DNA from: a virus
IMG/VR virus record: IMGVR_UViG_3300036806_000063
Location: 1-30,865 of that record
Reading direction: 5' to 3' (one strand)
Length of the DNA stretch: 30,865 nucleotides
The first letter of the stretch is position 1. The number at the start of each line of letters is the position of its first letter. The notes beneath the pieces were generated by a model. That model was given only the letters and a program-made list of their open reading frames with translations. It had not been told where the DNA came from and did no database searches. The position numbers were made by a program, and so were the translations under genes. This document shows, in pieces, positions 8,535-30,865 of this stretch.

Positions 8535-9436
8535 CGGGCGTTCTCCGGCGCCGGCACGTAGGGATAGCCGCGGAAGTGGGCCAGGTTCGCGAACTTGGTC
8601 GTGCAGGTCGCTTGCAGTTTGTCGCACCCGGGGAAGATGCTAAATGCGTCACCGTTTACCGGAGCAAACCGGAACGGGGCCGTCGGGATGACCGTGCCCC
8701 CGGCGTTCGTGAACGTTTTGACCGTGCGCGTTGAATCGGGACCGAGGCCGGCGTTCTGCCCCGAGGTGAACGTGATCGCGCCCAGCTCGAAATAGCCGTC
8801 CGCCTGCGCAAGGTTCGTGAGGATGACGCTCGCCGTGGATCCGCCGGCGGCAGCGCCGCCCACGGTGAACGCCGCGCGATTGAGCGTGCACCCCGCGTCG
8901 TACACGTTGTGCAGACAGCCAGGCGACCAGAGGTTGCGCGGAAGTGTGAGCTGGAGATAGGTGAGATCCGAGTTCACCGTGATCTGCACGCCGGTGCGCG
9001 TCGACACGACCTGGCCGACGACGCCCCAAAAGTTAATGAGCGTGCCCTTCGAGACGTCGCCCCACGTCGCCATGTAGAGCCGCTCGAGCACGACGCGCGC
9101 GCCGTCGAAGTAGCCGGTCCGCCCCTGCTGCGGGAGCGGCAGACCGAGGAGCGTTTGCCCGGCCACGGTCGCGAGCGTAATCGTCATCGAGTCAACCTCG
9201 AGACCAACGATGAGCTTCACGGCGGCGCGGGTGAACGTCGGGTACGGCGTGCCCTCGCCGCCGGCGAAGAACGTGTGGCTCGCGTTGTCGACCTGGCTCA
9301 CGGCAGTCACGTCACCGGGCGCGCTCGTGAGGTAGAACGTCGGCCCGTTGACGGGAATAACCGTCAACAGATCCGCGACGTAGAATTCGGTCGAGGAATT
9401 GAGGAACGCGATGAGCGCAGGCGAAGCGTTACGCAC
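8531..9436 (-). CDS. Tail tip hub protein, DUF2163/phage BR0599 family
   Basis: The protein has 301 residues. It carries hallmarks of the DUF2163/BR0599 family (gene transfer agent gp13 class): an N-terminal distal-tail-like domain (YVADLLTVIPVNGPTFYLTS), a central Cys motif CLHNVYDAGCTLNRAAF, and the C-terminal PGCDKLQATCTTKFANLAHF followed by FRGYPYVP. Homologues form the tail hub and some bind an iron-sulfur cluster through conserved cysteines; four to five cysteines are visible here. The start is GTG 9436, three bases after the previous stop. The next gene overlaps it by 4 bases. Confidence 0.9.
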   Translation of the reverse strand: MRNASPALIAFLNSSTEFYVADLLTVIPVNGPTFYLTSAPGDVTAVSQVDNASHTFFAGGEGTPYPTFTRAAVKLIVGLEVDSMTITLATVAGQTLLGLPLPQQGRTGYFDGARVVLERLYMATWGDVSKGTLINFWGVVGQVVSTRTGVQITVNSDLTYLQLTLPRNLWSPGCLHNVYDAGCTLNRAAFTVGGAAAGGSTASVILTNLAQADGYFELGAITFTSGQNAGLGPDSTRTVKTFTNAGGTVIPTAPFRFAPVNGDAFSIFPGCDKLQATCTTKFANLAHFRGYPYVPAPENAR

Positions 9437-9439
9437 GAT

Positions 9440-10045
9440 CTACGAACCGATCACGGATTTGAACGCGAGCCCGCCCTGTGACCAAAACGCGCTATTGAAG
9501 TTCGTGAAGTCCGGCGCGTCCGTGTCGAACCGCGCGCGCCAGTAGTAGCCGCCGGTCCACGTGAGCGCGTGCCCGACCGAGACAGGCGCGGTGAACGTGA
9601 CGAGGCCGTTCACAATGTTGTAATCGACGCCGGCGGTTTTAACGACGCCGTTGTCTTTGATCACCGGCACGCCGTTCAGGTTGTAGACGAATTCGGCGAA
9701 CCCCGCGACGGAGAACGTGCGCAAGAGTTGGAACGCCGTCGTCGCGCCGTCGCCCGTGGCGAACTGCTGGCCCGTGACCGTGTTGTCGGTCGGATCGCTG
9801 TAGAGGAACGAGTCGAACATCCCCTGCCGAGCGAGATAGAAATTCGCGAGGGTCTGGAAGTCGGGCGTGGTCGGGTCGATGCGGAGAAAGTTGTGCACGA
9901 CGTTCCACCGCCATTGCGGATACGGCGCGAACGCCGCGCGCAGCTCGCGGAAGCTGACCGACGCCTGGACCTTGGTCGCGAAGTTCGGCGTCTTGACGAC
10001 CGGCCATCCGAGCCCGGCGAGCGAGGGGAACACCGCGTTCGACAT
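9440..10045 (-). CDS. Distal tail protein, DUF2460/TIGR02217 family
   Basis: This 201-residue protein follows the tape measure gene. It begins MSNAVFPSLAGLGWPVVKTP and contains YPQWRWNVVHNFLR (residues 42-55) and LANFYLARQGMFDSFLYSDP (about 66-85), the core of the DUF2460 family. These proteins form the distal tail ring joining tube and tip, equivalent to gene transfer agent gp12. Full family length, ATG start, three bases from both neighbours. It should act with the DUF2163, NlpC/P60 and tip proteins encoded next. Confidence 0.92.
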   Translation of the reverse strand: MSNAVFPSLAGLGWPVVKTPNFATKVQASVSFRELRAAFAPYPQWRWNVVHNFLRIDPTTPDFQTLANFYLARQGMFDSFLYSDPTDNTVTGQQFATGDGATTAFQLLRTFSVAGFAEFVYNLNGVPVIKDNGVVKTAGVDYNIVNGLVTFTAPVSVGHALTWTGGYYWRARFDTDAPDFTNFNSAFWSQGGLAFKSVIGS

Positions 10046-10048
10046 CGC

Positions 10049-11719
10049 TCACCCTCGGCCGGGCGCGGTCGGGAGCCGGATCCCTTGCCCGACGCCGGCG
10101 ACGACGGCCTTCGCGAACGTCGTCGAGTTTTTCATCGCGAAGTCGTGGAATGAGCCGGCGTCCATCGTTTGAATACTCACATTGTATTGCGGCGCGGCAC
10201 CGCCGGAGGACGACGACGACGCTGCGCCGCCGCTACTGCCGCCACCACCGCTACTACTGCCGCCGCCGCCAAAGGAACCCGCGAGCGCGAGCACAGCGGC
10301 CAACGTGCCGAGTCCGATCGCCGCGGCGGTGATCGGGTCGAACTTGCTGGATGCCCAGGCCCACGCCGCCGCCGCCGCCTTCGCGGCCTGAATCCCGATG
10401 AACTGGACGGCGGCCCACGCCTCTTGCGCGATCTCGTTCGTGACGCCGCCAACTGTCAGCCCCTGCCGCGCGAGCCACATTGCCGCGTGGCTCTCAAGCA
10501 TCTTGGCCTCGGCCGTCGCGGCCTCGACGACGAGGTCTCGCATGAGCGTTCGGAAGAAATCGCGCATCGTTTCGCCGCCGCGCTGAAAGCCTTTGATCGC
10601 ATTGTTCCATGCGTCGGGGATCGCGTTGAACGTGTCCTGCCATCCTTTCGCCACGTCCGCCTGCTGCTTCTCCATCCACTTTTGTTCTTCCTCGGCGCTC
10701 TTTTGCATCGCCGCCGCCAGCTCGGCCGCGAGCTTGCGATCGCGCAGCCAATCCGCATAGCCGCCGTCGTTCGGCGTCTCGACAGTCGGCGCCGGTGTCT
10801 TTGGGTTGAGCAGTGCGTTCAGCGACGGGTCGTTCGCGAGCGCCGCCGTCGGGTCTTCTTGTTTGAGCAAGTGCAGCCAGACGAGCAGTCCCTTCACCTG
10901 CTGCACGAGTACAACGAATTGGTTGGCGACCCAGAGCACGACGTGGCCGAGCGTCTCGAGCAACGGCATGAAGATTTCCGACAGCTCTCGACCGGCGACG
11001 GCCATTTCGGCGTGATAGACTTTCATCGAGTCGACATACTTGTTGATCGCTTCGACGTCGTCCTCGCCCATCGTAATGCCGAGCTGGTCGGACTGCTTCT
11101 CGAGCGCCTCGATGCCGCCGGCGCCCTCGTTGAGCAGCGGGATCAACTCCGCACCGGCGCGGCCAAACAAGTTCATCGCGATCGCGGTCTTGCCGGTGCC
11201 GTCCTCCATCGTCGCGAACCGTTGCGCGACTTCGAGGAGGAGCGTGTTGAGCGGCACGAGGTTGCCGTTCGCGTCGGCGATCGAGATCCCGAGCGCGTGG
11301 AACGCTTCGGCCGCCGGCGTGGTCGCGCTCAGTTTCGCCGCCTCGACGTTGCGCGCGAGTCGCTCCATGCCCGTCTCGAGCTGCTCGAACGAGACGTCGG
11401 ACAGGTCAGCGGCGTAGCGTAGCCGCGAGAGCTCCTCGGCTGTCGTGCCGATTTTCTGCGCGCCGATCTCGAGCTGCTTTCCAAGTTCGGCGGTGCTCGA
11501 GATCATTTCTCCGAACAACTCGCCACCTTCGACGAGCGCCATGATCGCGAGGAGCGGACCGAGCGCGGCCTCGATCGACGCGGACATCGCCTCGAACGAT
11601 CCCGCGATGGCTTCGGTGCCTTCGGCAACGACGCCGGCCGCCTCGGTCATCGACGCGACGAGGCCGGTGATGTTGCCGGCAATGTTGACTAGGACGCCGT
11701 CGACCGTCTCGTCTGCCAT
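10049..11719 (-). CDS. Tail tape measure protein
   Basis: The protein has 556 residues and lies directly after the frameshifted chaperone pair, the canonical tape measure position. It is mostly helical with hydrophobic stretches at about 39-72 and 235-290, and contains the tape-measure-type pattern TAEELSRLRYAADLSDVSFE and AMNLFGRAGAELIPLL. A Trp/Met-rich helical segment (EEEQKWMEKQQADVAKGW) comes before a Gly/Ser-rich linker near residues 493-520. If about 0.15 nm per residue applies, the tail would be roughly 80 nm, a short to medium siphovirus tail. ATG 11719 is 13 bases downstream of the -1 frame ORF stop. Confidence 0.9.
   Translation of the reverse strand: MADETVDGVLVNIAGNITGLVASMTEAAGVVAEGTEAIAGSFEAMSASIEAALGPLLAIMALVEGGELFGEMISSTAELGKQLEIGAQKIGTTAEELSRLRYAADLSDVSFEQLETGMERLARNVEAAKLSATTPAAEAFHALGISIADANGNLVPLNTLLLEVAQRFATMEDGTGKTAIAMNLFGRAGAELIPLLNEGAGGIEALEKQSDQLGITMGEDDVEAINKYVDSMKVYHAEMAVAGRELSEIFMPLLETLGHVVLWVANQFVVLVQQVKGLLVWLHLLKQEDPTAALANDPSLNALLNPKTPAPTVETPNDGGYADWLRDRKLAAELAAAMQKSAEEEQKWMEKQQADVAKGWQDTFNAIPDAWNNAIKGFQRGGETMRDFFRTLMRDLVVEAATAEAKMLESHAAMWLARQGLTVGGVTNEIAQEAWAAVQFIGIQAAKAAAAAWAWASSKFDPITAAAIGLGTLAAVLALAGSFGGGGSSSGGGGSSGGAASSSSSGGAAPQYNVSIQTMDAGSFHDFAMKNSTTFAKAVVAGVGQGIRLPTAPGRG
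10198..10272 (-). repeat. Low-complexity GGC/AGC-type tract coding Gly/Ser linker
   Basis: A short tract of GCC-, GAC- and TAC-type triplets on the plus strand encodes the Gly/Ser linker near the C-terminus of the tape measure protein. It stays in frame and looks like ordinary low-complexity coding sequence, prone to length change by slippage. Confidence 0.6.
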
Positions 11720-17282: not shown

Positions 17283-18995
17283 TCAGAACTTCGGCTGCAT
17301 CTCGGGCGGCAGGCCCTCGATTTTCGGACTGAGGAACGATTCCTTGAACGCGCCCTTGAACGTGGTCGGCGGTGCCTTGTCGCCGGTGGCGGTCTTGTCC
17401 ACCGTCTCGCCGGTGGCCGTGGTTCCGCCTGCGACGTCGGCGCCCTTGTCGACGACGCGGAGCACGCCGCCCTTGCCCGACAACTGCTGCACGAGTTGCG
17501 CACCGGTTGACGCGAGATCCTCGGCCGTCTTGCGCAACGTGGCGTTCTCGCCCTCGGCCGCCGTCGCGCGATCTTCGGCGGCCTTGAGCCGCTTCTCGAA
17601 TCCGCTCAACGCTTTCGCGAACTCGCCTTCACCAGCGCCAGCGGTTGCCGCTGCGGCCTTCGCGACCTTGTCGGCCTCGCCCTCGTCGTCGCCCGCGCCG
17701 CCCTCGCCTTCGCCGGTCATGCTGGCGTGCAGGCCGGAGAGCTTCTCGACGTGAGCCTTCATGGCCTTGTGCGAGTCGCCGGCGATCTTCATGCACTTCT
17801 CGGCGTGGTCGACGAGATCGCTGACCTTCGCGATATGCTTCTGCGCGAACGCCTTGGCGAACTCGGGATCGCCGACGGCCTTCGCGAACTCCTCGGGGGA
17901 AGAGAGCGCGACCTTGAGCGTTTTGAGATAGATGTCGTCCTTCATCGTGCCCTCGTCGGTGATGGCGACTTTCGTCGCGCTCGTTTCTTTCGTGTCGCCT
18001 GCGGCCTCGCCTTCCTCGTTCGCGTCGAGTCCGAGCAGCGCGCGGAGTTCCTCGACCTCTTCGCCGGTCATCGCGAGCAGGATGTCGGCGCCCTCGGCCG
18101 CCCAATCGGCGAGCCGGTCGGGGATCTCCGAGTCGTCCTCTTCCCGCTCGCGCTCGTACTGCGCCGACCGTTGCGCCCAGGTCGTTGACTCGACGAGGTT
18201 CGCCATTTGGCCGATTTCGTACATGCCTTTCGAGAAGTCGCCGCGGAGCATCGCCTTTTCCGTGACGTCGCCGATGCCGAACTTGCGCGCGGCGGCCCGA
18301 ATGTTCCGGCCAATCGTGGCTTGGTCCTTCGTCGAATACTTGGCGCGGTTCTTCGCCTGGCCCCAATACGAGAGCGCGGCGCGCACGTGCGCCTTCGTCT
18401 CGATCGGATACTTTTTGTTCTTCGCGTCGGCGTAGGTGACGTCGCCGTATTTCGATTCGCCGGTCGCGGCGCTCGTGTCCTCGCGGGCGGCGATCTTGAA
18501 TGACCGCTCCTCGCTCGCGCCGCCGATTTTGATCATCGTGAATGTGGCGGTCGGCACGCACGGGAGATCGGCGAGCGATAGCTCGGTCGGGTTCGCGATG
18601 TAGCGCATCATCGTGCGGTCGACGGGATCCTTCCACCGCTTCATGACTTTCCCAGAAAACGAGAAGCCGGTGTAATTCCCGTCCATGACCTTTTGCCACT
18701 CGACCGGATCGTTCACGTACGCGCACACGTCAATTTTTTTCGCCGTGTCGTCGAACGAGAGATCGCGCAGGATGCCCGCCGAGATGTTGCGGTGCATCGC
18801 GCGGAGATTGCCCTTCGACTTCCCGGCGGTGCCGTCCTCGGCATTCTTCGACCACTGCTCGATGTACGGCTTCGAGCCGTCGTAGTCGAAAATCTCGTTG
18901 TCGCGGTCGCGGATCTCCTGCGTGGCTACGCCATAGACCTCTTGCTTTTCCTCGTCGATTTTTGTGATCGGGATGAACAGCGCGGGGCGCGGCAT
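17283..18995 (-). CDS. XkdF-like prohead protease fused to DUF6582-like and scaffold-like regions
   Basis: The protein has 570 residues. Residues 1-160 resemble XkdF/Peptidase_S78_2 phage serine proteases: EEKQEVYGVATQEIRDRDNE, candidate catalytic His68 in LRAMHRNIS, candidate Ser112 or Ser114 in GFSFSGKV, and the ending ELSLADLPCVPTATF. Residues about 183-241 match a DUF6582-like module (YPIETKAHVRAALSYWGQAK and AAARKFGI). The rest is a long acidic Ala/Glu/Lys helical region, probably acting as internal scaffold, ending PPEMQPKF. The start ATG 18995 has no good ribosome binding site. It lies directly before the capsid gene. Confidence 0.88.
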   Translation of the reverse strand: MPRPALFIPITKIDEEKQEVYGVATQEIRDRDNEIFDYDGSKPYIEQWSKNAEDGTAGKSKGNLRAMHRNISAGILRDLSFDDTAKKIDVCAYVNDPVEWQKVMDGNYTGFSFSGKVMKRWKDPVDRTMMRYIANPTELSLADLPCVPTATFTMIKIGGASEERSFKIAAREDTSAATGESKYGDVTYADAKNKKYPIETKAHVRAALSYWGQAKNRAKYSTKDQATIGRNIRAAARKFGIGDVTEKAMLRGDFSKGMYEIGQMANLVESTTWAQRSAQYEREREEDDSEIPDRLADWAAEGADILLAMTGEEVEELRALLGLDANEEGEAAGDTKETSATKVAITDEGTMKDDIYLKTLKVALSSPEEFAKAVGDPEFAKAFAQKHIAKVSDLVDHAEKCMKIAGDSHKAMKAHVEKLSGLHASMTGEGEGGAGDDEGEADKVAKAAAATAGAGEGEFAKALSGFEKRLKAAEDRATAAEGENATLRKTAEDLASTGAQLVQQLSGKGGVLRVVDKGADVAGGTTATGETVDKTATGDKAPPTTFKGAFKESFLSPKIEGLPPEMQPKF

Positions 18996-19211
18996 GTTCA
19001 CAAGGGGACGGCGACGACCGAGCGAGCTGACGCGCGTGAGGCGGCGGTGCGACTTCTCTAACGCGCGTCGTGGTCGTGCTGTGGGTCGTGCTGGCACTAC
19101 GCTCGAACAGGGAGACCCGCGCCGGCCGCCGATAGCCGCGATAGGAAAGCTGGCAACGACCGACGCGCTCGTTCACCCCTGAACGCCTGCAAGTTTGGGC
19201 GGACTGCGGGG
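18996..19211. other. 216-base gap between small ORF and protease
   Basis: No convincing gene is present. Minus-strand frames here give Arg/Ser/Thr-rich products without ribosome binding sites. The sequence includes short repeated motifs around CACGACC and GCACGAC near 19075-19100. A promoter for the protease/capsid operon might lie here, but no clear -35/-10 pair was found. Confidence 0.4.
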
Positions 19212-19469: not shown

Positions 19470-20285
19470 TTACTCGCTGTCGCTGTCCTCGGGCACGACC
19501 GCCACAGGGTAAATCACGCACCGGCAATTCGGGTGCGCCGGCGGCCCGTCGTCGCCGTTCGAGAACGCATCCTCGAGCGGCACCTCTTCGCCGTCCATCG
19601 GCTCGCACTCGTCGCACGCCTCGTCGTCCGCGCTCCACCCCTTGCCCTCGACGACGCCAGAAGCGGCGTAGCCTTGGAGCGTGCCGGCCGTCTCCGCGGT
19701 CGCCATCTCCGTACGGGCGATGACGGTCGCGCGGTCCGTGCTGAACTCCCACGCGCCGGAGAGCTGCTCGGCGAACTCCTCGGTCGTGATGCCGTCGCGG
19801 ATCGCTGCCGCCGTCATTTCGTTGACGGCATCGCGCGTGACGTCGCTGACGTCGGTGATGAGATTTCCCGCGCGCTCTTGGGCCCACGCGATCGCGCGCT
19901 CGTTGGCTTGCGAGAGGAGTTGCTCGATTTCGTCGGCGGACGCGCCGCGCGTGAGGCGGCGGATCTCGCCGTCGCCGCGCTCGAGCGCGACCTCGGTCAG
20001 CAGGTCTCGGAGCTCGTCGCGCTCGGCCTCGGTCCAGGCAAAGTCGTCGTCCTTGAGCGAGCTGAGAAAGTCGCGGAGCCGATCGGCTGCGTCCTTCTCA
20101 TGTCGCGAGGCGCGCGCGACGATCGTTGCGCGGATCCGGCGAAAGACTCGCCGCGCGAGCCGGTCGATCGACCGCTCATACTTCGCGGCGTGCGTATCGT
20201 TGCGCGCGAGCGGCGGCAGCGCCTTCGCCTTGGGTTTCCGCTTCGCGCGTTTCTCGACGACGGCCAATCCCGTTACGAATTCCAC
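19470..20285 (-). CDS. Head morphogenesis protein, SPP1 gp7/Mu gpF family
   Basis: This 271-residue minor head protein of the gp7/gpF family associates with the portal and takes part in prohead assembly or DNA ejection. Middle part: EIEQLLSQANERAIAWAQER and VTRDAVNEMTAAAIRDGITT (residues 119-168). The family signature follows: RATVIARTEMATAETAGTLQ, a Cys pair at 224 and 227 (ACDEC), and HPNCRCVIYP with His251, Cys254 and Cys256. The N-terminus is basic. GTG 20285 overlaps the portal end by 13 bases; no clear ribosome binding site is seen, and a TTG at 20267 is an alternative start. Confidence 0.92.
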   Translation of the reverse strand: MEFVTGLAVVEKRAKRKPKAKALPPLARNDTHAAKYERSIDRLARRVFRRIRATIVARASRHEKDAADRLRDFLSSLKDDDFAWTEAERDELRDLLTEVALERGDGEIRRLTRGASADEIEQLLSQANERAIAWAQERAGNLITDVSDVTRDAVNEMTAAAIRDGITTEEFAEQLSGAWEFSTDRATVIARTEMATAETAGTLQGYAASGVVEGKGWSADDEACDECEPMDGEEVPLEDAFSNGDDGPPAHPNCRCVIYPVAVVPEDSDSE

Positions 20286-21895
20286 GGCGCACGATACCCG
20301 AACGGTCGCAAGCGCATGGCGCGCGCGCCGCCGACTTTCGTCGTCGTGCCTTCATCGCCGGTGCCGGGCTTCTTGCCGTTGCCGTTCGCGCCGTTGCTGC
20401 TCGGCGCTTTGTCGCCAGGCTTGCCCGGCGGTGTGCCGCCCGGCCTTGGAGGAGTGGCGCCGCCTGCCGCGATGGGTTCCGGCGCCGGCGGTTGCAACTC
20501 CTTTAATTGGTCCGGCGTGGCCGGTGGCAGACTCGCGAACTCGCGCACCTCGGCGAGCGTCATGATCGCCTTTGCCGTGCCGGTCGTGCCGCCGTAATAG
20601 CTCTGCGCGACTCGCGCCTTCGCTTCGGGATCGACGATCTCCTCGTCGGCCCACTGCCAGCGGAGATTCGGAAATCCCGCGCGCCGCAACAGGTCGTCCA
20701 TGAGATCCGAGAACCATAGTTTCATGGGCTCGAGTCCCTCCTCCTGCGCGGCCTCTTTACTCGTCTCCGACGTCGCGCGGTTCATTTCTTTCACGAACGC
20801 TTGCGGCGGCAGTGAGAAGCAGTAGCAGATAATCCGAATGAGCCATTCGTCGAAGGTGTCTTTGAGGATCTGGTCCTTCGTCGCGACATACTTCGCGTCG
20901 GCCGGCACGAACCGCATTTTGCGGCGCTCGCCGAGCTGCCCCGACATCTCCGAATTGAACCACTCGGTGAATTGCTTGATCGCCGCTTGGCTCCACTCTT
21001 TCGGCACCTCCATGAAGCCGTCGGGAATGGTACCGGCGGTGAAATACGCGAGCTGCGACATCTGCCGGTTCAACGAGATCGCGATCGTCGCGAGCACTTG
21101 CTCGACGTGGCTCATGCCGTACAGTCGGTTCGTGCGGACGTTGTACGGGTAGTATCCGATCTCGTCCAACGTATAGTCTTGGGTCGGCATCCCCTTGAGC
21201 ACTTGCTGATATGCGGGGAGCGGCGGCATCGGCGTTCGGCCGTCCTCGGCGAGAATCAGCAGCTTCAACGTCGCGCCGTCCATCGGCTCGAACAGCGGAC
21301 GGACTTCGCCGTCGATCTGCGCCGTGCGCAAGTAGACGGCGGGCGCGTCGATCACGAGATGATCCTCGACGATCGACCGCATCCACTGCCTGAACGTGTG
21401 CACGCCGTCGGGCTTCGAGAGCCAGGCCTCGACGTCGCGCGCGGCCTGCCCGCCGTTGTCGTTCTTCTCGACGCCGCGAATTTTCCATCGCTGCGCCGCC
21501 ATCTGGTCTTTCCGCGTCTCGATCGCGAGGCGCAAGAGATCAAGTCCGCCCTCGGCCGGCTCGGCCATCCGGCGAAGCGTCTCGAATCCGATCGGCACGC
21601 CCTGCTCGCCACGGGGCGTGTAATTGAAATTGATGAACGACGGGTAGTCCCACCGGCGCCCCGTCGTCGTCCCTGGCGGTGCAACAGGCGAGAGCGGCCG
21701 ACCGGACGGAAACCAACCGTCGGGCGGATCAAAGGCCTCAACGGCTTGCGGCGACGTCGGCGCCACGGGCGGCAGGAGACGCGCGGGCGCGCCCGCGCGC
21801 ACGGGCGGCGCCGAGCGTTGAAAGGCGCCGGTCAGTCGATCGACCGCGCTGCCGAGGCCCGTGATGCGTGCCGCGCCTTCTGTCGGTGTCGCCAT
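20273..21895 (-). CDS. Portal protein
   Basis: This 540-residue protein forms the dodecameric DNA channel at one vertex of the head. Diagnostic stretches are LDLLRLAIETRKDQMAAQRW, VEDHLVIDAPAVYLRTAQID, IGYYPYNVRTNRLYGMSHVE and LNRQMSQLAYFTAGTIPDGF, followed by CYCFSLPPQAFVKEMNRATS with the conserved Asn-Arg-Ala region. The N-terminus and the C-terminal tail are Pro/Gly-rich and probably disordered (PPRPGGTPPGKPGDKAPSSN). ATG 21895 directly precedes ATPTEGAARITG; upstream in-frame codons are Arg/Ser-rich and were excluded. It lies just before the gpF-like gene as in other HK97-type phages. Confidence 0.95.
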   Translation of the reverse strand: MATPTEGAARITGLGSAVDRLTGAFQRSAPPVRAGAPARLLPPVAPTSPQAVEAFDPPDGWFPSGRPLSPVAPPGTTTGRRWDYPSFINFNYTPRGEQGVPIGFETLRRMAEPAEGGLDLLRLAIETRKDQMAAQRWKIRGVEKNDNGGQAARDVEAWLSKPDGVHTFRQWMRSIVEDHLVIDAPAVYLRTAQIDGEVRPLFEPMDGATLKLLILAEDGRTPMPPLPAYQQVLKGMPTQDYTLDEIGYYPYNVRTNRLYGMSHVEQVLATIAISLNRQMSQLAYFTAGTIPDGFMEVPKEWSQAAIKQFTEWFNSEMSGQLGERRKMRFVPADAKYVATKDQILKDTFDEWLIRIICYCFSLPPQAFVKEMNRATSETSKEAAQEEGLEPMKLWFSDLMDDLLRRAGFPNLRWQWADEEIVDPEAKARVAQSYYGGTTGTAKAIMTLAEVREFASLPPATPDQLKELQPPAPEPIAAGGATPPRPGGTPPGKPGDKAPSSNGANGNGKKPGTGDEGTTTKVGGARAMRLRPFGYRAPWNS

Positions 21896-21908
21896 GTTTA
21901 GTGATCTC

Positions 21909-22634
21909 TCACGGCCCGATCGACGGCCCCATGATAAAGCCGAACTGTTGGTTCGGCCGCGCCGGCCCCGGCGGCACGAGCGACGCGCCAAGCGTCCGCC
22001 GCTGTTGCGGTTGTGCCGGATCGTAATACTGCGCAATGATACTCGCCGCGCGCGCCGCGAGGTTGACCGGCGGCGGCGCGGTCGTTGTGCCAGCGGTGAC
22101 CTTTGGCGCTCGAGGCTGTGGGTCGACCGTCGGATAATACCACGTCCGAATGAGATCGAGCGCCACCGCGGCCGGGCTCCGGGGCGGCGGCGTTACTACG
22201 GCCCCCGTCGTCACTTTCCGTGGCGGCACGGGCGGATCGACCGGCGCGTAATACCACACGCGAATGAGGTCGAGCGCCGCTTGGGCCGGCGAGTGCGGGA
22301 GGCCTGGTGTTGGTTGGGTTGACACCTGCGCGGCGATCTGGGGGGGCCGTTGTGGCGGAATGAACGGCGGTTCCCAGGTCGCGCGAATCAGCTCGGCGGT
22401 CGACGGATCCGGCGCACGCGGAATCGACGTCGCGACCTGCGTCGTCGGCGTGGCGGTTTGGTACAGCGGGATAATGACGGGCACGAGGCACGCGGCCACG
22501 GCGGCCTGCGTTTGTCGGTCCGCCAGCGCCGGCGGGAGTGTCGGCGTCCCGGCGTTGGCCGGAACGGTGGCGCTGGTCGCCGGAGGGATGACGGTGACGG
22601 GCGAGTAGAACACGCCCGGCGAGTAGAAGTTCAC
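21909..22634 (-). CDS. Proline-rich repeat protein with four 38-41-residue units
   Basis: The protein has 241 residues and about four imperfect repeats: LIRATWEPPFIPPQRPPQIA, LDLIRVWYYAPVDPPVPPRK, LDLIRTWYYPTVDPQPRAPK, and the shorter AASIIAQYYDPAQPQQR. Each unit is a short helix with Trp-Tyr-Tyr, then a Pro-rich segment with Val/Thr-Thr turns. Spacing is 41, 38 and 38 codons. The start is a GTG at 22634, with GGAGGG 6 bases upstream; an ATG at 22640 would place that sequence in contact with the codon and is less likely. It sits just before the portal gene. Function unknown, perhaps a structural or connector-associated protein. Confidence 0.7.
   Translation of the reverse strand: MNFYSPGVFYSPVTVIPPATSATVPANAGTPTLPPALADRQTQAAVAACLVPVIIPLYQTATPTTQVATSIPRAPDPSTAELIRATWEPPFIPPQRPPQIAAQVSTQPTPGLPHSPAQAALDLIRVWYYAPVDPPVPPRKVTTGAVVTPPPRSPAAVALDLIRTWYYPTVDPQPRAPKVTAGTTTAPPPVNLAARAASIIAQYYDPAQPQQRRTLGASLVPPGPARPNQQFGFIMGPSIGP
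22000..22410 (-). repeat. Tandem imperfect repeats inside the proline-rich gene
   Basis: The motif cgaatgag or close variants (encoding the Leu-Ile-Arg or Ile-Ile-Ala helix) recurs at 22384, 22261, 22147 and 22033, that is every 123, 114 and 114 bases. The repeats are diverged at DNA level but the encoded Trp-Tyr-Tyr and Pro-rich core is kept. Confidence 0.7.
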
Positions 22635-22674
22635 GACCATCCCTCCGACGGTGTGGCCCCGCGATGCTACAGAA

Positions 22675-22977
22675 TTACGATACCGTGCCCGTGATCGACA
22701 CGGTAATCGAGAGCGATACCTGCGGCTGCGGCGCGCTGTCGACGTCCTTCTGCGCATCGCCGACCGGCGTGCCCTTGTCCTTGTGGTCGCGCGCGATCCG
22801 GTCGCGGGTGTCCTTCAACTTCGCCTCGGCCGGGTCGAGGATGAACTTCGCCGCGTGGTGGGCCACGTTCCGAACGACGGTTTGATCGTCGCTCGAGAGC
22901 GCCGGGTCGTGCACCTTGGCGTTGAGCTGCTCGCGCACGTCGTTGAGACTGCCCGACGCGCTGAATGAGAATTCCAT
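22675..22977 (-). CDS. Small hypothetical protein
   Basis: The gene encodes 100 residues starting MEFSFSASGSLNDVREQLNA at ATG 22977 with GGAG about 10 bases upstream. A helical, charged central part (DQTVVRNVAHHAAKFILDPA, then AEAKLKDTRDRIARDHKDKG) is followed by a beta end, QVSLSITVSITGTV. The strand-helix-strand pattern suggests a compact alpha/beta domain. It lies in the accessory block upstream of the portal. Family not recognised. Confidence 0.7.
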   Translation of the reverse strand: MEFSFSASGSLNDVREQLNAKVHDPALSSDDQTVVRNVAHHAAKFILDPAEAKLKDTRDRIARDHKDKGTPVGDAQKDVDSAPQPQVSLSITVSITGTVS

Positions 22978-23058
22978 GATGACAAATCTCCGAAGAGGAA
23001 AAGCCAGAGAGACGGGGGTGAACGGCGCGTGCAAACGCGGGTACAACGGGACGACGAC

Positions 23059-23544
23059 TTACAACTCGGCGTACGTGACGCCGGTGTTCCAGCCGGAGAG
23101 CGTGCCAGCCGCGGCCGGCAGATGCAGGCCGAGGCCCGACGCGGAGCTCGCCGACATCATGAGTTGCTCGTCGGGCGTTGGCGTCCAGAGATAGCCGTTC
23201 AAGACGCTGAACGTATCCGGGATGATGACTGTCTTGGCGCCGGCGCCTTCCGCCGATGCGTTCACCCCGGCGGTGCCGGCGGCGCCAGCCGCGCCGCCCG
23301 TGATCTGTGCCGCGCCGTCGAGGAGCACGCTCTTCGCGGGTGTGGCAGATGTGACCGTGGGGAACGCGGATACTTGGGTGTTCCACTGGATCCGCTGTTG
23401 CACGCTCGACGTGACGCCGGCCTGGGTCGCCCAGCCGCGCAAGACGCGGAACGACGCCGTCGTTCCAGGGTTGATGAAGACGAGCGTCACCGCCTGGTTT
23501 GCCAGCGTGAGGTTGACGCCGTTGACCGTGTATACGCCGCGCAT
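23059..23544 (-). CDS. Hypothetical structural-type protein
   Basis: The protein has 161 residues starting MRGVYTVNGVNLTLANQAVT, with TAGGAG 9 bases before ATG 23544. It is beta-rich and Ala/Thr/Gly-rich with no charged clusters, as in phage fibre or capsid surface proteins: TASFRVLRGWATQAGVTSSV and AGAAGTAGVNASAEGAGAKT, ending AAGTLSGWNTGVTYAEL. No signal peptide or membrane helix. Composition and context (next to adhesin-like and lectin-like genes) suggest a virion surface component. This is inference; no family is recognised. Confidence 0.7.
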   Translation of the reverse strand: MRGVYTVNGVNLTLANQAVTLVFINPGTTASFRVLRGWATQAGVTSSVQQRIQWNTQVSAFPTVTSATPAKSVLLDGAAQITGGAAGAAGTAGVNASAEGAGAKTVIIPDTFSVLNGYLWTPTPDEQLMMSASSASGLGLHLPAAAGTLSGWNTGVTYAEL

Positions 23545-24625: not shown

Positions 24626-25849
24626 CTAGACCGCGTAGCCGTTGAGGAGAGACGGGCGCGTGCGTCCGATCGAAATCTCGGCGGTGTCGATCGTTTGATC
24701 GACGGTCGGCCCGTTGTTGATGTTCAACCGGAATTGGGGTTGCACGGTCACGTTCCATGTCCCGTTGGGAAAGAACGGCCCCGTCGTCGACGTGCCGTGC
24801 TGCACGCCGTCGACGTAGGCGTTGACCGTAATGGCCGACGTGTTGATGTTCAAGAACTCCAATACGAGAACGTGCCACGCCCCGTCAAAGTTTGGCCCGA
24901 GCGACGGAAGCTGATGATCGGTTGTGCCGCTGAACCCATCGTTGATGACGATGCGGAGCGGATAGCTGCCCGAGATCGGCTGACCTGAACTGCCGTTCTC
25001 GAACATGATTTCGATCGTGCCCTGCCCGCCGTGTGACGTGCTCTGTACGGCGATGAACGTGAACTTGTATTCGCAGGATGATCCGATGTTCGAGCTGAGG
25101 CCGCCCCCAGGCTTCCATCCGCTCGACAGTTTGAACATCTGCCGCACGTAGAACTTGTCGGTGTAGGCCGCGTGTGGCGGGTTGAGAATCGCCGCCATGC
25201 CGACTTGCAGATTGTCCGAGACGCCGGACGACGGGCGGCCCGGCTGCGTGATGCGCCAGACCTGCTCGCCGGTCGGACCGGCGAGGGGCAGCGACTGATA
25301 GTTGACGGCTGGCGGATTGCCGGGGCCCGAGGACGCGCTCCCGAACACAGTATTGCCGCCGCCGTTCCAGCCGTAAAACATGGCCGTGCTCGGGATCGGC
25401 ACGACGGAGTTACTGGGATCGCCGGTCGTACCGTTCCACTCGCAAAAGCCGAGAAAGTGCGGGACCGTATCGAAGGACTGGAAGTTCGAATGTCCGTCGT
25501 CGGCGAGCGCGGTGACCGCGACCGGCGTCGTCTGCCCTGCGGTAATGTTGAACGATGCGAAGTCCGTTACGGCTGAGCCGATGCCGAACCCGAGCGGCGG
25601 TTGATACCGCCACGTATACGGGCCAGCCGCGAGGGGCGCGGTGAGCGTGCCGCTGCCACTGAGCGCCGACGAGGCGAGGAGGTTCGTTGCTGTCGCGTCC
25701 CACAGCTCGAAGACACCGCCGCCGACAGTGGCGCCGCCGACTTCGTTCGTGACCGCGACCGAAAAGAAACCGGTCGCTGGGCCGGCGACCGTGTTCGTGT
25801 ACGCGACGGAACGCGCCATGCGTGGAACGAGGATGTAGGGCGCGCCCAC
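24626..25849 (-). CDS. Lectin-like structural protein with LamG/concanavalin-type C-terminus
   Basis: The protein has 407 residues. Residues about 20-120 form a beta-rich N-terminal domain of the carbohydrate-binding or Ig type (VFELWDATATNLLASSALSG). The second part, about 180-400, has the alternating strand pattern of concanavalin-A-like/LamG jelly rolls: SGVSDNLQVGMAAILNPPHA, FYVRQMFKLSSGWKPGGGLS, WHVLVLEFLNINTSAITVNA, YVDGVQHGTS. GTG 25849 has GAGGAG 7 bases upstream. It may bind host surface glycans, or be a head decoration protein, but no binding residue can be named. Confidence 0.72.
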   Translation of the reverse strand: MGAPYILVPRMARSVAYTNTVAGPATGFFSVAVTNEVGGATVGGGVFELWDATATNLLASSALSGSGTLTAPLAAGPYTWRYQPPLGFGIGSAVTDFASFNITAGQTTPVAVTALADDGHSNFQSFDTVPHFLGFCEWNGTTGDPSNSVVPIPSTAMFYGWNGGGNTVFGSASSGPGNPPAVNYQSLPLAGPTGEQVWRITQPGRPSSGVSDNLQVGMAAILNPPHAAYTDKFYVRQMFKLSSGWKPGGGLSSNIGSSCEYKFTFIAVQSTSHGGQGTIEIMFENGSSGQPISGSYPLRIVINDGFSGTTDHQLPSLGPNFDGAWHVLVLEFLNINTSAITVNAYVDGVQHGTSTTGPFFPNGTWNVTVQPQFRLNINNGPTVDQTIDTAEISIGRTRPSLLNGYAV

Positions 25850-25864: not shown

Positions 25865-26191
25865 TTACAGAATGGCTTTGATCGTGCTCGCGGCCGCGGT
25901 CGTCGACGACGATCGCACGCGCCGAATCCGAACGTCGATGCGGTAGTACGCGGGAACTCCCGGCAGTGTTTGAATGGACCCGTCCATACACACGAACGAG
26001 ATGTCCGCTTGGACGGTCAGAAAAAAGGCTTTCGCGATGACGGCCACGCCGGCGGCGTTGTAGATGTTGTCATCGGTGTCGCTCGCGAGGATGTCTTTCG
26101 CATTCATGCCTTCGCCGGGCGAGTAGACGCGAATGCCGCGACCCGTGTTGACCGTGGCGTATGGGTCGAGCGCGACAACAGGATCGGCCAT
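25865..26191 (-). CDS. Hypothetical protein in structural block
   Basis: The gene encodes 108 residues starting MADPVVALDPYATVNTGRGI. It is beta-rich, with AGVAVIAKAFFLTVQADISF and YYRIDVRIRRVRSSSTTAAA near the end. GAGG lies about 11 bases before the ATG. The 15-base spacing to the lectin-like gene suggests a shared transcript. The size and strand content suit a small virion protein such as a cementing or adaptor subunit, but this is inference. Confidence 0.68.
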   Translation of the reverse strand: MADPVVALDPYATVNTGRGIRVYSPGEGMNAKDILASDTDDNIYNAAGVAVIAKAFFLTVQADISFVCMDGSIQTLPGVPAYYRIDVRIRRVRSSSTTAAASTIKAIL

Positions 26192-26306: not shown

Positions 26307-26966
26307 TTACGGCGCTCCGCGGTCCTCGGTGTCGCTCGCCGCGCCGGCGGGTTCGGCCGCCGGTTCCGAGACGCCATCGGGTGCGATCGTGGTGTCGGCG
26401 TCTTCTTCGAGATCCATGCACGCATCGAAGGCGCCGCCGTTCACCGTCTTGAAGCGGTCGAGCTCCGGTTGCCAGTTCGCGCCGGCATCGCCGGGATCGT
26501 GCACGAGGAACGCCGGACACTCGACCACGGAAATTTCGTCGTAGAGGTCGTTCAGGTCTTTGTTATAGGCCTTCGGGTCGACGAGGTTGAATTGATTGGG
26601 ATCGATCTCGCGCTCGTCGGTGTCCTTTCCCTCTTTGTCCTGCTTGAACAGCGCCGAGCCGTCGGGCTTCTTGGCGTACACCGGCGTCGGCTGGCCGGCC
26701 TGCGGGTGTCCCTCGGGATACCGCTCTTTGTGCGTCTCGAGCAAATCGCCTTGCTGGCGCTGGACTTCCTCCATCGCCGCCGTGATCGCGCGGCGCTGCT
26801 GGCCGAGCTTCCGCGCGAACTTGCCGGTGATGTCGTCGCGCGCCTGCATTTTCTGGATGCCCATGAGGATGACGGGCATACGCTTGTTCGCGAGGTAGAA
26901 CCGGATCGTGTTGTTCGCGACGGTCGCGGGATGCTTCGCCGAACGGATCGGTGAGACTTTGGTCAT
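26307..26966 (-). CDS. Hypothetical protein, acidic tail, coupled to Cys-cluster gene
   Basis: This 219-residue protein starts at ATG 26966, overlapping the TGA of the YkgJ-like gene (ATGA). It has a basic N-terminus (TKVSPIRSAKHPATVANNTI), a helical region (ARKLGQQRRAITAAMEEVQR), a charged Pro/Gln/Tyr-rich middle with EGHPQAGQPTPVYAKKPDG, and NDLYDEISVVECPAFLVHDP with the aromatic/Cys motif. It ends in an acidic, disordered tail (EEDADTTIAPDGVSEPAAEP). A small hairpin (GCGCCG with CGGCGC, 26300-26315) spans its stop. The family is unknown; it is made in step with the Cys-cluster protein. Confidence 0.7.
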   Translation of the reverse strand: MTKVSPIRSAKHPATVANNTIRFYLANKRMPVILMGIQKMQARDDITGKFARKLGQQRRAITAAMEEVQRQQGDLLETHKERYPEGHPQAGQPTPVYAKKPDGSALFKQDKEGKDTDEREIDPNQFNLVDPKAYNKDLNDLYDEISVVECPAFLVHDPGDAGANWQPELDRFKTVNGGAFDACMDLEEDADTTIAPDGVSEPAAEPAGAASDTEDRGAP

Positions 26967-27334
26967 GCGCGTTTTCTCTCGAAAAGGGGAAGTTGACGAG
27001 ACGGGGGAATTGGTTGAACGAACGAGCAGTGCGAGCACGCGCCTCCGCGACCGTAGCCGGGATAGTCGCTGCACATTTTGGGGCGATTGTTATAGATCGA
27101 ACACAGTCCATTGCGCAAATGTTTGCACGTGTAGCGCGGGCTGGTCTCGTCGTCCTCGTCGATCCGAATGACCATCTCGGCAATCGTGATGATGTCGAGG
27201 TCGTTCCGACTCCGATCGGCCTCGGGGCGCTGGAGCGCGACAGCGTAAAGTTCGGCGATTGTTCCCGGCGCATGATTGAGCGGGAAATCCTCGCAGCATC
27301 GGCCGCCGCACTGCACCGAACAGGGGTCGTCCAC
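26963..27334 (-). CDS. YkgJ-like Cys-cluster (metal-chelating) protein
   Basis: This 123-residue protein has nine cysteines. The pattern CSVQCGGRCC (Cys5, 9, 13, 14) is followed by C70-K-H, GLCSIYNNRPKMCSDYPGYG (Cys78, Cys88) and ACSHC (Cys100, Cys103), which is the signature of the YkgJ/UPF0153 family thought to bind zinc or iron-sulfur. The start is taken as GTG 27334, one base after the GT gene stop. The gene is coupled to the next one by an ATGA overlap. In bacteria such proteins have no settled function. The neighbouring glycosyltransferase and methyltransferase suggest a linked modification step, which is inference. Confidence 0.82.
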   Translation of the reverse strand: MDDPCSVQCGGRCCEDFPLNHAPGTIAELYAVALQRPEADRSRNDLDIITIAEMVIRIDEDDETSPRYTCKHLRNGLCSIYNNRPKMCSDYPGYGRGGACSHCSFVQPIPPSRQLPLFERKRA

Positions 27335-27335
27335 C

Positions 27336-28010
27336 TTACACGCCCCACGCGGTAAGCGTGTTCTGAACCTGCTTCAATTTGTCGGCGCTCGTCGTCCGGT
27401 AGATGTGCCAGAAGTAGACGGGCGGGATCTCGAGCCGCTTACAGAGGTCGAGCCAGGCGACGACCTTGAGCCCGTAGCGCGCCTCGTTGCACGCGATCAC
27501 ATAGTCGTCGATGAGATGCGCGCGTGACACGCCGCCGGCGATCTCGACGACCTGGGGATGGATGGCGTCGAGAATGCTGTCGATAGTGAGAATGCGCGGC
27601 CACTCCCACACATCGCGGCACCAGTCCGAGGACACGTTCATCCAATTGCCGGGGGAGATGAATCGGCCGTCGCGCCGGAACCACGGGTTCGCGGCAAAGC
27701 GAATCGTTGAGCGGTCGAGGCCGTGATGGAGGACCGTGTCTTTCGATAGGTGCGCCGTGACGTCGGGGGCGTCGGGATGAATGAGCGCGTCGGCGTCGAA
27801 GAACAACGACCAATCGTCGTCTCGGTCGAGGCTGAGTTGCCCCACCTGAAATTTCTCCATCGTCACCGGCCAGCACGGCCAGCGGCGCTCGGTAATAACG
27901 ACGAACTCGGCGCCGATCTTCCGCGCGTAGTTCTTGAGCAGTGGGAAAGTGAGCGCGGTGATCTCTGGCTCGTAGTCGTCGACCGAGAGCGTGTAGAGCG
28001 TCTTGTTCAT
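27336..28010 (-). CDS. Glycosyltransferase-like protein (GT-A type)
   Basis: This 224-residue protein resembles GT-A glycosyltransferases of the GMA12/GT34-like or related type. The start MNKTLYTLSVDDYEPEITAL leads to a Rossmann-like strand-helix run, with the metal- and sugar-nucleotide-binding D-x-D as DAD at residues 72-74 (SLFFDADALIHPD), then APDVTAHLSKDTVLHHGLDR. Tyr/Trp-rich segments and PPVYFWHIYRTTSADKLKQV close the domain. No membrane helix. ATG 28010 overlaps the methyltransferase TGA (ATGA). It may glycosylate a virion protein, phage DNA base or host glycan; substrate unknown. Confidence 0.8.
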   Translation of the reverse strand: MNKTLYTLSVDDYEPEITALTFPLLKNYARKIGAEFVVITERRWPCWPVTMEKFQVGQLSLDRDDDWSLFFDADALIHPDAPDVTAHLSKDTVLHHGLDRSTIRFAANPWFRRDGRFISPGNWMNVSSDWCRDVWEWPRILTIDSILDAIHPQVVEIAGGVSRAHLIDDYVIACNEARYGLKVVAWLDLCKRLEIPPVYFWHIYRTTSADKLKQVQNTLTAWGV

Positions 28011-28594
28011 GGGTGCGACACGTAGGGGCGGAGGACGACGATCGAATCAACGAGGGTCGAGAGATCGAAGGGCGTGCCGTTACAGAACCGCGTGACTGCT
28101 TCGGCGACGTCGGGATAATCAAAGTCGTGCAGCGCAATCGTGCCGGTCTGTTTCACGAGACGATCGGCGTGTCGAAGGTCGCGCTCCACAGAGCCGACGT
28201 CGTGCGATCCGTCGATGAACACGAGGTCGAAACTCTCTTCGCGTAAGAGTGGGCAGGCGACGTCGGCCGCGCCGATGATGGCGCACACGCGGTCGCGCAC
28301 GCCGTGCTCGGTGAGTTGGTCGATGAAATGGCCGGCCGTGTCGATGCGCGTCGGGTCGATGCGATCGACGAGCGGCGCGAGGAATGACGGCGCGCCCGGT
28401 TGATGTTCGGCGGATCCGCGGTGATGGTCGACCGAGACGACGAGTTTCGCCGAACGCGCGAGCGCGACCGTCGAGCGGCCAAGAAAGGATCCGATCTCGA
28501 GCACGACGAGATCGCGGGCGAGCGCGGTGAGGTAATCCGCTTCATTCGCCCTGAGCCAGCCCGGCGGAAGGTCGTCCGGCACGATGTCGCTCAT
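28007..28594 (-). CDS. Class I SAM-dependent methyltransferase (Methyltransf_24-like)
   Basis: This 195-residue enzyme has a Rossmann fold. Motif I is VLEIGSFLGRSTVALARS (residues 31-48), the acidic end of strand 2 is VVSVDHH (52-58), and FDLVFIDGSHDVGSVERDLR (122-141) holds the motif typical of the Methyltransf_24 family. IALHDFDYPDVAEA follows at about 153-166. ATG 28594 overlaps the TGA of the previous gene (ATGA), so the N-terminus starts MSDIVPDDLPPGW; the longer upstream reading is Arg-rich and spurious. Such enzymes in phages often methylate sugars or small molecules, so it may act with the adjacent glycosyltransferase. Confidence 0.88.
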   Translation of the reverse strand: MSDIVPDDLPPGWLRANEADYLTALARDLVVLEIGSFLGRSTVALARSAKLVVSVDHHRGSAEHQPGAPSFLAPLVDRIDPTRIDTAGHFIDQLTEHGVRDRVCAIIGAADVACPLLREESFDLVFIDGSHDVGSVERDLRHADRLVKQTGTIALHDFDYPDVAEAVTRFCNGTPFDLSTLVDSIVVLRPYVSHP

Positions 28595-28842
28595 TCTTTC
28601 CTCGCGAGCTGCTCGTGGAGATCCGCGATCGTCTGCTCGCGCTCGTACGCCAAGTTCTGCCAATACCGAGCGCCGGTGCGGTAGATCGCGAGCGCCTCGG
28701 CGACCGGGACGATGATCGAGCCGTGTCCGGTCGTGTCGACAACGGCGGTAATGTTGATGTTCACGCCGCCGTCGACGAGCGGCACCTTTGCGCCGTCCGC
28801 CATCTGCACGAACATGTTGCCGTGCTCGTCGCGCTGAATCAT
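28591..28842 (-). CDS. Small hypothetical protein before methyltransferase
   Basis: The gene encodes 83 residues from ATG 28842 (MIQRDEHGNMFVQMADGAKV). An upstream GTG at 28884 would add 14 residues; neither start has a good ribosome binding site, so the start is uncertain. It is beta-rich at first (VNINITAVVDTTGHGSIIVP), ending in a charged helix (YEREQTIADLHEQLARKE). It is coupled to the methyltransferase by ATGA. No family is recognised; it may be a small structural or accessory protein of the same module. Confidence 0.65.
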   Translation of the reverse strand: MIQRDEHGNMFVQMADGAKVPLVDGGVNINITAVVDTTGHGSIIVPVAEALAIYRTGARYWQNLAYEREQTIADLHEQLARKE

Positions 28843-30317: not shown

Positions 30318-30865
30318 CTAGAACGTAAGCCAGTTTGCGCCGTTCGAGTAGACGTTGATCGAGCCGTAGTTACTCGAGATAACTTTGGTCGACGCGCCGT
30401 CGATCGTCTGCGCCGACGTCGTGGCGATTGTAATGTTCTGCGCCGCCGCTGCCCCCACGCCGTCTTTGATCGTGAACTTCTGTCCAGCGCGGCCGACAGC
30501 GGTCAACAACGTGACGGTCCGCGGCGCGGTGAGCGCGATGTATTCAATGATCTCGTCGGACGCGACCGTGGTGTAGATCGTGTCGTTCACGGTCGTGCGC
30601 GCGACGATGCGGCCAGCGGTCGTCGTGACGCCGCTGAACGTTGATGCGGCGGCGGTGAGCGCGGCGTCGGCTGAGTCGTCCGCGAGTCGTACGGCCAGCG
30701 TGGCCGCCGAGCGTTTGAGGCTCGGGAAACTCGCCGTCGTTCCGCCGAACTGCAGACGCCCGAAGTTCGTGCCGGCGTTATTGAGCAGTTCGAGCACGCC
30801 GTCGCTCGGAGCGTTCCAGTTCGTCGAGCCAGTGAACCCCATCCCGCTCGCGACGCCTGCGAAGA
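30318..30865 (-). CDS. Fibre-like structural protein, 5' end outside window
   Basis: The frame is open from the right edge to TAG at 30318; it continues upstream of ATG 30842 (…FAGVASG), so the true start is outside. The visible part of about 180 residues shows phage fibre features: the LQFGGTTASFPSLKRSAATL motif, RLADDSADAALTAAASTFSG, then TTTAGRIVARTTVNDTIYTT and the C-terminal type SAQTIDGASTKVISSNYGS with NVYSNGANWLTF. These are common in tail fibre or capsid fibre proteins with repeated beta units. A role in host attachment is inferred from the family. Confidence 0.7.
   Translation of the reverse strand, partial: FAGVASGMGFTGSTNWNAPSDGVLELLNNAGTNFGRLQFGGTTASFPSLKRSAATLAVRLADDSADAALTAAASTFSGVTTTAGRIVARTTVNDTIYTTVASDEIIEYIALTAPRTVTLLTAVGRAGQKFTIKDGVGAAAAQNITIATTSAQTIDGASTKVISSNYGSINVYSNGANWLTF

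Follow-up and report, generated by a model that had tools for sequence, protein, structure and literature searches.

Coupled glycosyltransferase, methyltransferase and Cys-cluster genes among virion genes suggest a toolkit for phages that decorate their own particles

What a glycosyltransferase (GT), a methyltransferase (MT) and a cysteine-rich protein might do together amid the genes for a viral particle is the question raised by a five-gene block in the window, i.e. the whole stretch of DNA analysed (30,865 bp), which is one complete viral record with nearly all of its likely genes on the minus strand. A sequence-only reading had described the five genes as a chain joined by three ATGA overlaps and one single-base gap. 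This arrangement was recovered in full on the minus strand, with the overlaps at 28594-28591, 28010-28007 and 26966-26963 and a TAA-G-GTG junction (1-bp gap) between the GT and Cys genes (Table 1). Since the nearest gaps outside the block measure 127 bp (upstream) and 115 bp (downstream), the five genes stand out as one coupled unit, and the block looks like a translationally coupled one, although tight spacing per se is common in phages. The GC content at third codon positions (0.69-0.87 across all five genes) backs coding. The same reading had placed the chain inside a virion-protein region with lectin-like neighbours; the first part held, as portal, head-morphogenesis, protease, tape-measure, tail and baseplate-like genes surround the block, whereas the lectin-like assignment remained weak (Laminin_G_3, 17.3 bits against a cut-off of 27.6). 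For the two outermost genes little was recovered: the small protein had no Pfam or NCBIfam match and a PHROG match at E 0.059 only, and searches of Pfam, PHROGs, phage records and viral contigs gave nothing related to the acidic protein.

Table 1. Genes of the coupled block and of its surroundings in the window, from high to low coordinates
Feature	Position	Strand	Remark
Baseplate-like protein	30318-30842		Two genes without assigned function lie between this gene and the block
Small protein, 83 aa	28591-28842	-	First block gene; ATGA overlap with the MT gene
Methyltransferase (MT), class I SAM-dependent, 195 aa	28007-28594	-	Methyltransf_24; probable sugar O-methyltransferase
Glycosyltransferase (GT), predicted GT-A fold, 224 aa, FFDADAL	27336-28010	-	Model, Foldseek; DxD at residues 72-74
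Nine-Cys protein, CxxCxxCC (YkgJ-type), 123 aa, GTG start	26963-27334	-	PF03692; putative Fe-S or Zn binder
Acidic protein, 219 aa	26307-26966	-	Last block gene; ATGA overlap with the Cys gene
Gene without assigned function	25865-26191		Just below the block
Weakly lectin-like protein	24626-25849		Followed at lower coordinates by small genes without assigned function, then the portal gene
Portal	20273-22036
Head-morphogenesis domain protein	19470-20285
Head protease-like protein	17283-19097
Putative capsid protein, 506 aa	15683-17203
Tape measure	10049-11719
Glycoside hydrolase	9440-10045		Tail assembly and tail proteins come next

First, the GT had no Pfam or PHROG match at E 0.1, no NCBIfam match and no match among PDB sequences, even when searched as a profile. 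A structure model built by AlphaFold solely from the window and locus sequences reached a pLDDT of 89.3 and a pTM of 0.89 and consists of a compact single domain. In a Foldseek search of the PDB with this model, the best matches were the four chains of domain 1 of A064R from PBCV-1 (E 4e-6), a domain that acts on the major capsid protein, followed by GT34 and GT6 enzymes, all of the listed matches being glycosyltransferases; among viral predicted structures, the matches came from tailed phages and giant viruses and were GT34-like. The TM score of about 0.5 and the 12% identity to A064R point to a common fold, not to family membership. On the model, the protein is a predicted GT-A-fold glycosyltransferase with a nucleotide-sugar fold. 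A two-sequence GT profile retrieved 22 viral loci and led to an alignment of 19 sequences with 13 invariant residues, including D72, D74 and H202. Both aspartates of the DxD motif are invariant around a variable middle residue, and H202, the C-terminal histidine, is conserved in 19/19 sequences; the proposal of a GT with a DAD motif was thus borne out by both fold and alignment. The nearest isolate-collection relative is MH319737, a single-cell marine virus (31% identity), which was the only one found by tblastn among 50,697 phage records, and a single-pattern scan of genome contigs gave just one relative, from a MAG contig of 5.9 kb, which fits a viral role. As judged by these searches, the family appears phage-restricted and has no Pfam or PHROG profile. 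Its relatives in viral contigs surfaced by alignment-based scans only, as single-protein scans of the same contigs (GT, MT, Cys, portal and acidic proteins as queries) found no relatives. The A3 scan, in which matches were confirmed with the window Cys protein, also found none.

Second, the MT belongs, as had been read from the sequence, to Methyltransf_24 (PF13578; E 1.7e-17, 64.6 bits against a cut-off of 26.3). Its closest PDB relative is 6g7d (E 2e-15), which we take to be the mycobacterial sugar 1-O-methyltransferase MeT1, and the window motif VDHHRGSAEHQPG aligns against VDHHHGSEEHQPG with the common pattern VDHHxGSxEHQPG. MeT1 and a mannosyltransferase are encoded in one mycobacterial cluster (PMC9883506). 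This methylmannose polysaccharide cluster (MeT1, ManT) resembles the block in placing a sugar O-methyltransferase beside a glycosyltransferase, and differs in making a bacterial polysaccharide and in having no Cys protein. Because of the relation to MeT1 and because the methyltransferase of the related viral record L021 also matches rhamnosyl O-methyltransferase, a sugar O-methyl cap is the likeliest reaction, and the window MT is probably a sugar O-methyltransferase. The PHROG matches of the MT include one annotated as DNA methyltransferase, and DNA-glycosylating phage GTs are known (PMC12619734), so that the GT or MT might hypermodify phage DNA bases instead of protein glycans; we regard this as highly improbable, given that the MT has no Pfam DNA-methyltransferase family and matches 6g7d best, that no base-modification or nucleotide-metabolism gene occurs among the window proteins tested, and that the block has a structural location. 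Mycobacteriophage Papyrus and phage ctz7E20, which encode related MTs, were rejected as carriers, with no such cassette in their annotated stretch.

Third, the protein described beforehand as a YkgJ-like nine-Cys protein matches the Pfam family CxxCxxCC (PF03692) above the cut-off (E 1.4e-6, 29.3 bits against 23) as well as phrog_14785 (E 5.4e-9); it has no NCBIfam match. The cysteines at positions 5, 9, 13, 14, 70, 78, 88, 100 and 103 form an N-terminal CX3CX3CC and a later C-x7-C-x9-C pattern, and a putative Fe-S or Zn centre is suggested by this arrangement. The structure model is poor (pLDDT 50.6) and too weak to interpret. To our knowledge, a function of YkgJ-type proteins is known for the FliB branch only, and a literature search on phage YkgJ or cysteine-cluster proteins found nothing related. 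FliB, a flagellin lysine methylase, is about 400 aa long. Its N-terminal CX4CX3CC binds [4Fe-4S] and was likened by the authors to PF03692, and the enzyme performs SAM-dependent lysine methylation (PMC8598068). The two motifs are similar and differ in spacing; an identity of the window protein with FliB was ruled out by its CX3CX3CC, its length of only 123 aa and the NCBIfam result. The marine Cys family is also present in many Synechococcus phage records (e.g. GU071096, 134554-135030), and its match in S-ShM2 overlaps a feature annotated as ferrochelatase.

Whether these families belong together was addressed by a co-occurrence test set in advance. Of the 19 viral records found via the GT alone, seven have a CxxCxxCC-type gene, which in each case shares the strand of the GT and follows it within 1.6 kb. 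With six records found via the Cys family, whole records being searched, 13 records contain both genes; every one of the 13 has a Cys copy 20-1,572 bp downstream of the GT and encoded on the same strand, and the two genes of L043 overlap directly. By comparison, of 50,697 phage records no more than 37 or 38 were seen to contain a relative of the window Cys protein or of the marine one; this background is rough, as it comes from a different collection and related viruses do not count as independent. A Methyltransf_24 gene lies 0.1-0.9 kb from the GT in 5/19 records, directly upstream (5') of it in L008 and L021, and all three families are present in three other records (L021, L037 and L038), surrounded by RCC1-repeat and tail-fibre assembly proteins. 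The expectation of co-occurrence was therefore supported for the families and failed for their exact composition: the full five-gene set was seen in the window alone, and the closest GT relatives (L005, L006, L007 and L008; 43-50% identity) have no Cys gene, L008 being the only one of the four with an MT. Window and marine proteins are distant in phmmer comparisons (E 1e-6 to 1e-4 for the MT, 5e-4 to 0.01 for the Cys protein), so that neither the window MT nor the window Cys protein belongs to the subfamily of its marine counterparts. The linkage is thus at the level of families, not of one inherited operon, and the cassettes look put together from interchangeable parts around the GT.

These data bear directly on the part played by the Cys protein, for which coincidence is the main rival. 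The GT and MT might cooperate while the Cys protein serves an unrelated role, such as host takeover or metal scavenging, and has been placed there by the drift of small accessory genes. CxxCxxCC genes do occur in many phages, with mixed neighbours away from the GT (HSP20, deaminase, nucleases), so the family is not glycan-specific; the window copy differs in subfamily from the marine ones, and its gene has the lowest GC of the block (0.594 against 0.651 for the window). The recurrent position downstream of the GT, set against the rarity of such relatives in phage records, and the 1-bp coupling to the GT in the window argue in the other direction, and we consider coincidence a serious prospect that falls short of an even chance. 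A further, rather unlikely reading concerns chemistry. In L007 and L008, radical-SAM proteins (CxxxCxxC; L007:8672-9655 and L008:9558-10523; Pfam Radical_SAM, 1.7e-5 and 2.7e-7) are encoded downstream of the GT, where the window has its Cys gene. If they are substitutes, phages would recurrently pair a GT with Fe-S chemistry, and the CxxCxxCC protein might be an Fe-S enzyme or cofactor (FliB-like, SAM- or Fe-dependent) of virion-protein modification, acting with the GT and MT.

Herein, we propose that the block is a late-expressed virion-glycan cassette, a proposal to which we give somewhat better than an even chance. Its basis is the fold, the motifs, the gene coupling, the virion-gene context and the recurrent GT-Cys-MT linkage. 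In the order of steps that we infer, the DxD-containing GT-A enzyme, which looks soluble and cytosolic and has no lipid-carrier partner in the cassette, would transfer a sugar from a nucleotide-sugar to a phage structural protein, such as a tail fibre or another particle protein; alternatively, the acceptor might be a first sugar already present on a particle protein. Next, the MT would cap the added sugar by O-methylation. With its putative Fe-S or Zn centre, the CxxCxxCC protein may contribute to a step of this modification that requires a metal, and this is the weakest step of the explanation. Against the proposal, none of the window proteins tested was recognised as the product of a sugar-nucleotide gene.

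For the pathway as a whole, the main rival is modification of the host surface. Serotype-converting phages alter the host surface during infection or lysogeny, and the cassette might likewise change an O-antigen or capsule so as to block superinfection or aid release. The neighbourhoods of the relatives are informative here. Their cassettes hold GT25, GT9, GT17, sulfotransferase, rhamnosyl O-methyltransferase-like and 2OG-oxygenase genes, and the GT25, GT9 and HldE-like kinase and nucleotidyltransferase genes of the marine relatives are typical of LPS sugar synthesis. However, RCC1-repeat proteins and tail-fibre assembly or fibre genes border the same cassettes, which lie between tail-fibre genes or, in the case of L008, follow the major head gene at a distance of a few genes; the window block sits among virion genes with a coupling of 1-4 bp, and it has no membrane GT and no GtrA or GtrB partner. 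A modification of the host surface is accordingly judged improbable. The block was also compared with the GtrABC serotype-conversion set, which was rejected, as the five block proteins gave no match to the GtrA or GtrB family and the GT is a compact single domain. The cassettes of seven marine records (L002, L009, L010, L012, L014, L020 and L021) include, near fibre genes, further GTs, a sulfotransferase, 2OG-Fe(II) oxygenases and DUF6445 and, on inspection of the sequences, HldE-like heptose kinase/nucleotidyltransferase and epimerase genes.

Two groups of viruses offer precedents for the virion-glycan reading. We know of no Cys-cluster partner of the first, A064R of the chlorovirus PBCV-1. 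A064R comprises two rhamnosyltransferase domains and a sugar O-methyltransferase domain and experimentally builds the O-methylated capsid glycan, so that a virus-encoded GT and MT pair for such a glycan is already known (PMC9614988). Like the window, A064R (with A061L) couples a virus-encoded GT-A glycosyltransferase to a SAM methyltransferase; unlike the window, it is a single fused protein of 638 aa with two GT domains, from an algal virus. The second group is formed by the mycobacteriophages Che8, Corndog and Myrna, in which phage GTs glycosylate capsid and tail-tube proteins (Freeman et al. 2023, as cited in PMC12363180). The window shares with them a phage-encoded GT, and its GT gene lies inside the virion gene region, as expected for Che8-type phage virion glycosylation. 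The tblastn search, which found MH319737 only, shows no detectable sequence relation to the GTs of these phages, and the account consulted (PMC12363180) describes no linked MT and Cys gene for them.

Thus, the interpretation offered from the sequence is partly supported, and the gene cluster suggests a recurring, undescribed toolkit for phages that decorate their own particles. Glycosylation of virions by phage enzymes has been documented in few phages, and here a GT family without a profile recurs beside tail-fibre or head genes, with MT and putative metal-binding partners. If confirmed, the set would provide a marker for phages that decorate their virions and might tell what some YkgJ-type proteins do.

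Several minor observations concern the surroundings of the block and of its relatives. Matches to sigma-70 promoters and terminators around the block are slightly more frequent than in shuffled sequences and carry no weight as evidence. The nearest relative of the 506-aa putative capsid protein is found in Brevundimonas phage Polewnik (44% identity), whose structural region has no annotated cassette gene; at 21909-23544 of the window, a large terminase was not recognised upstream of the portal gene, in contrast to Polewnik. In L008, a protein encoded between the GT and radical-SAM genes (8765-9565) has KAYRxAHRE repeats and, by eye, an endonuclease VII-like HNH domain at its end, and it looks like a homing endonuclease insertion.
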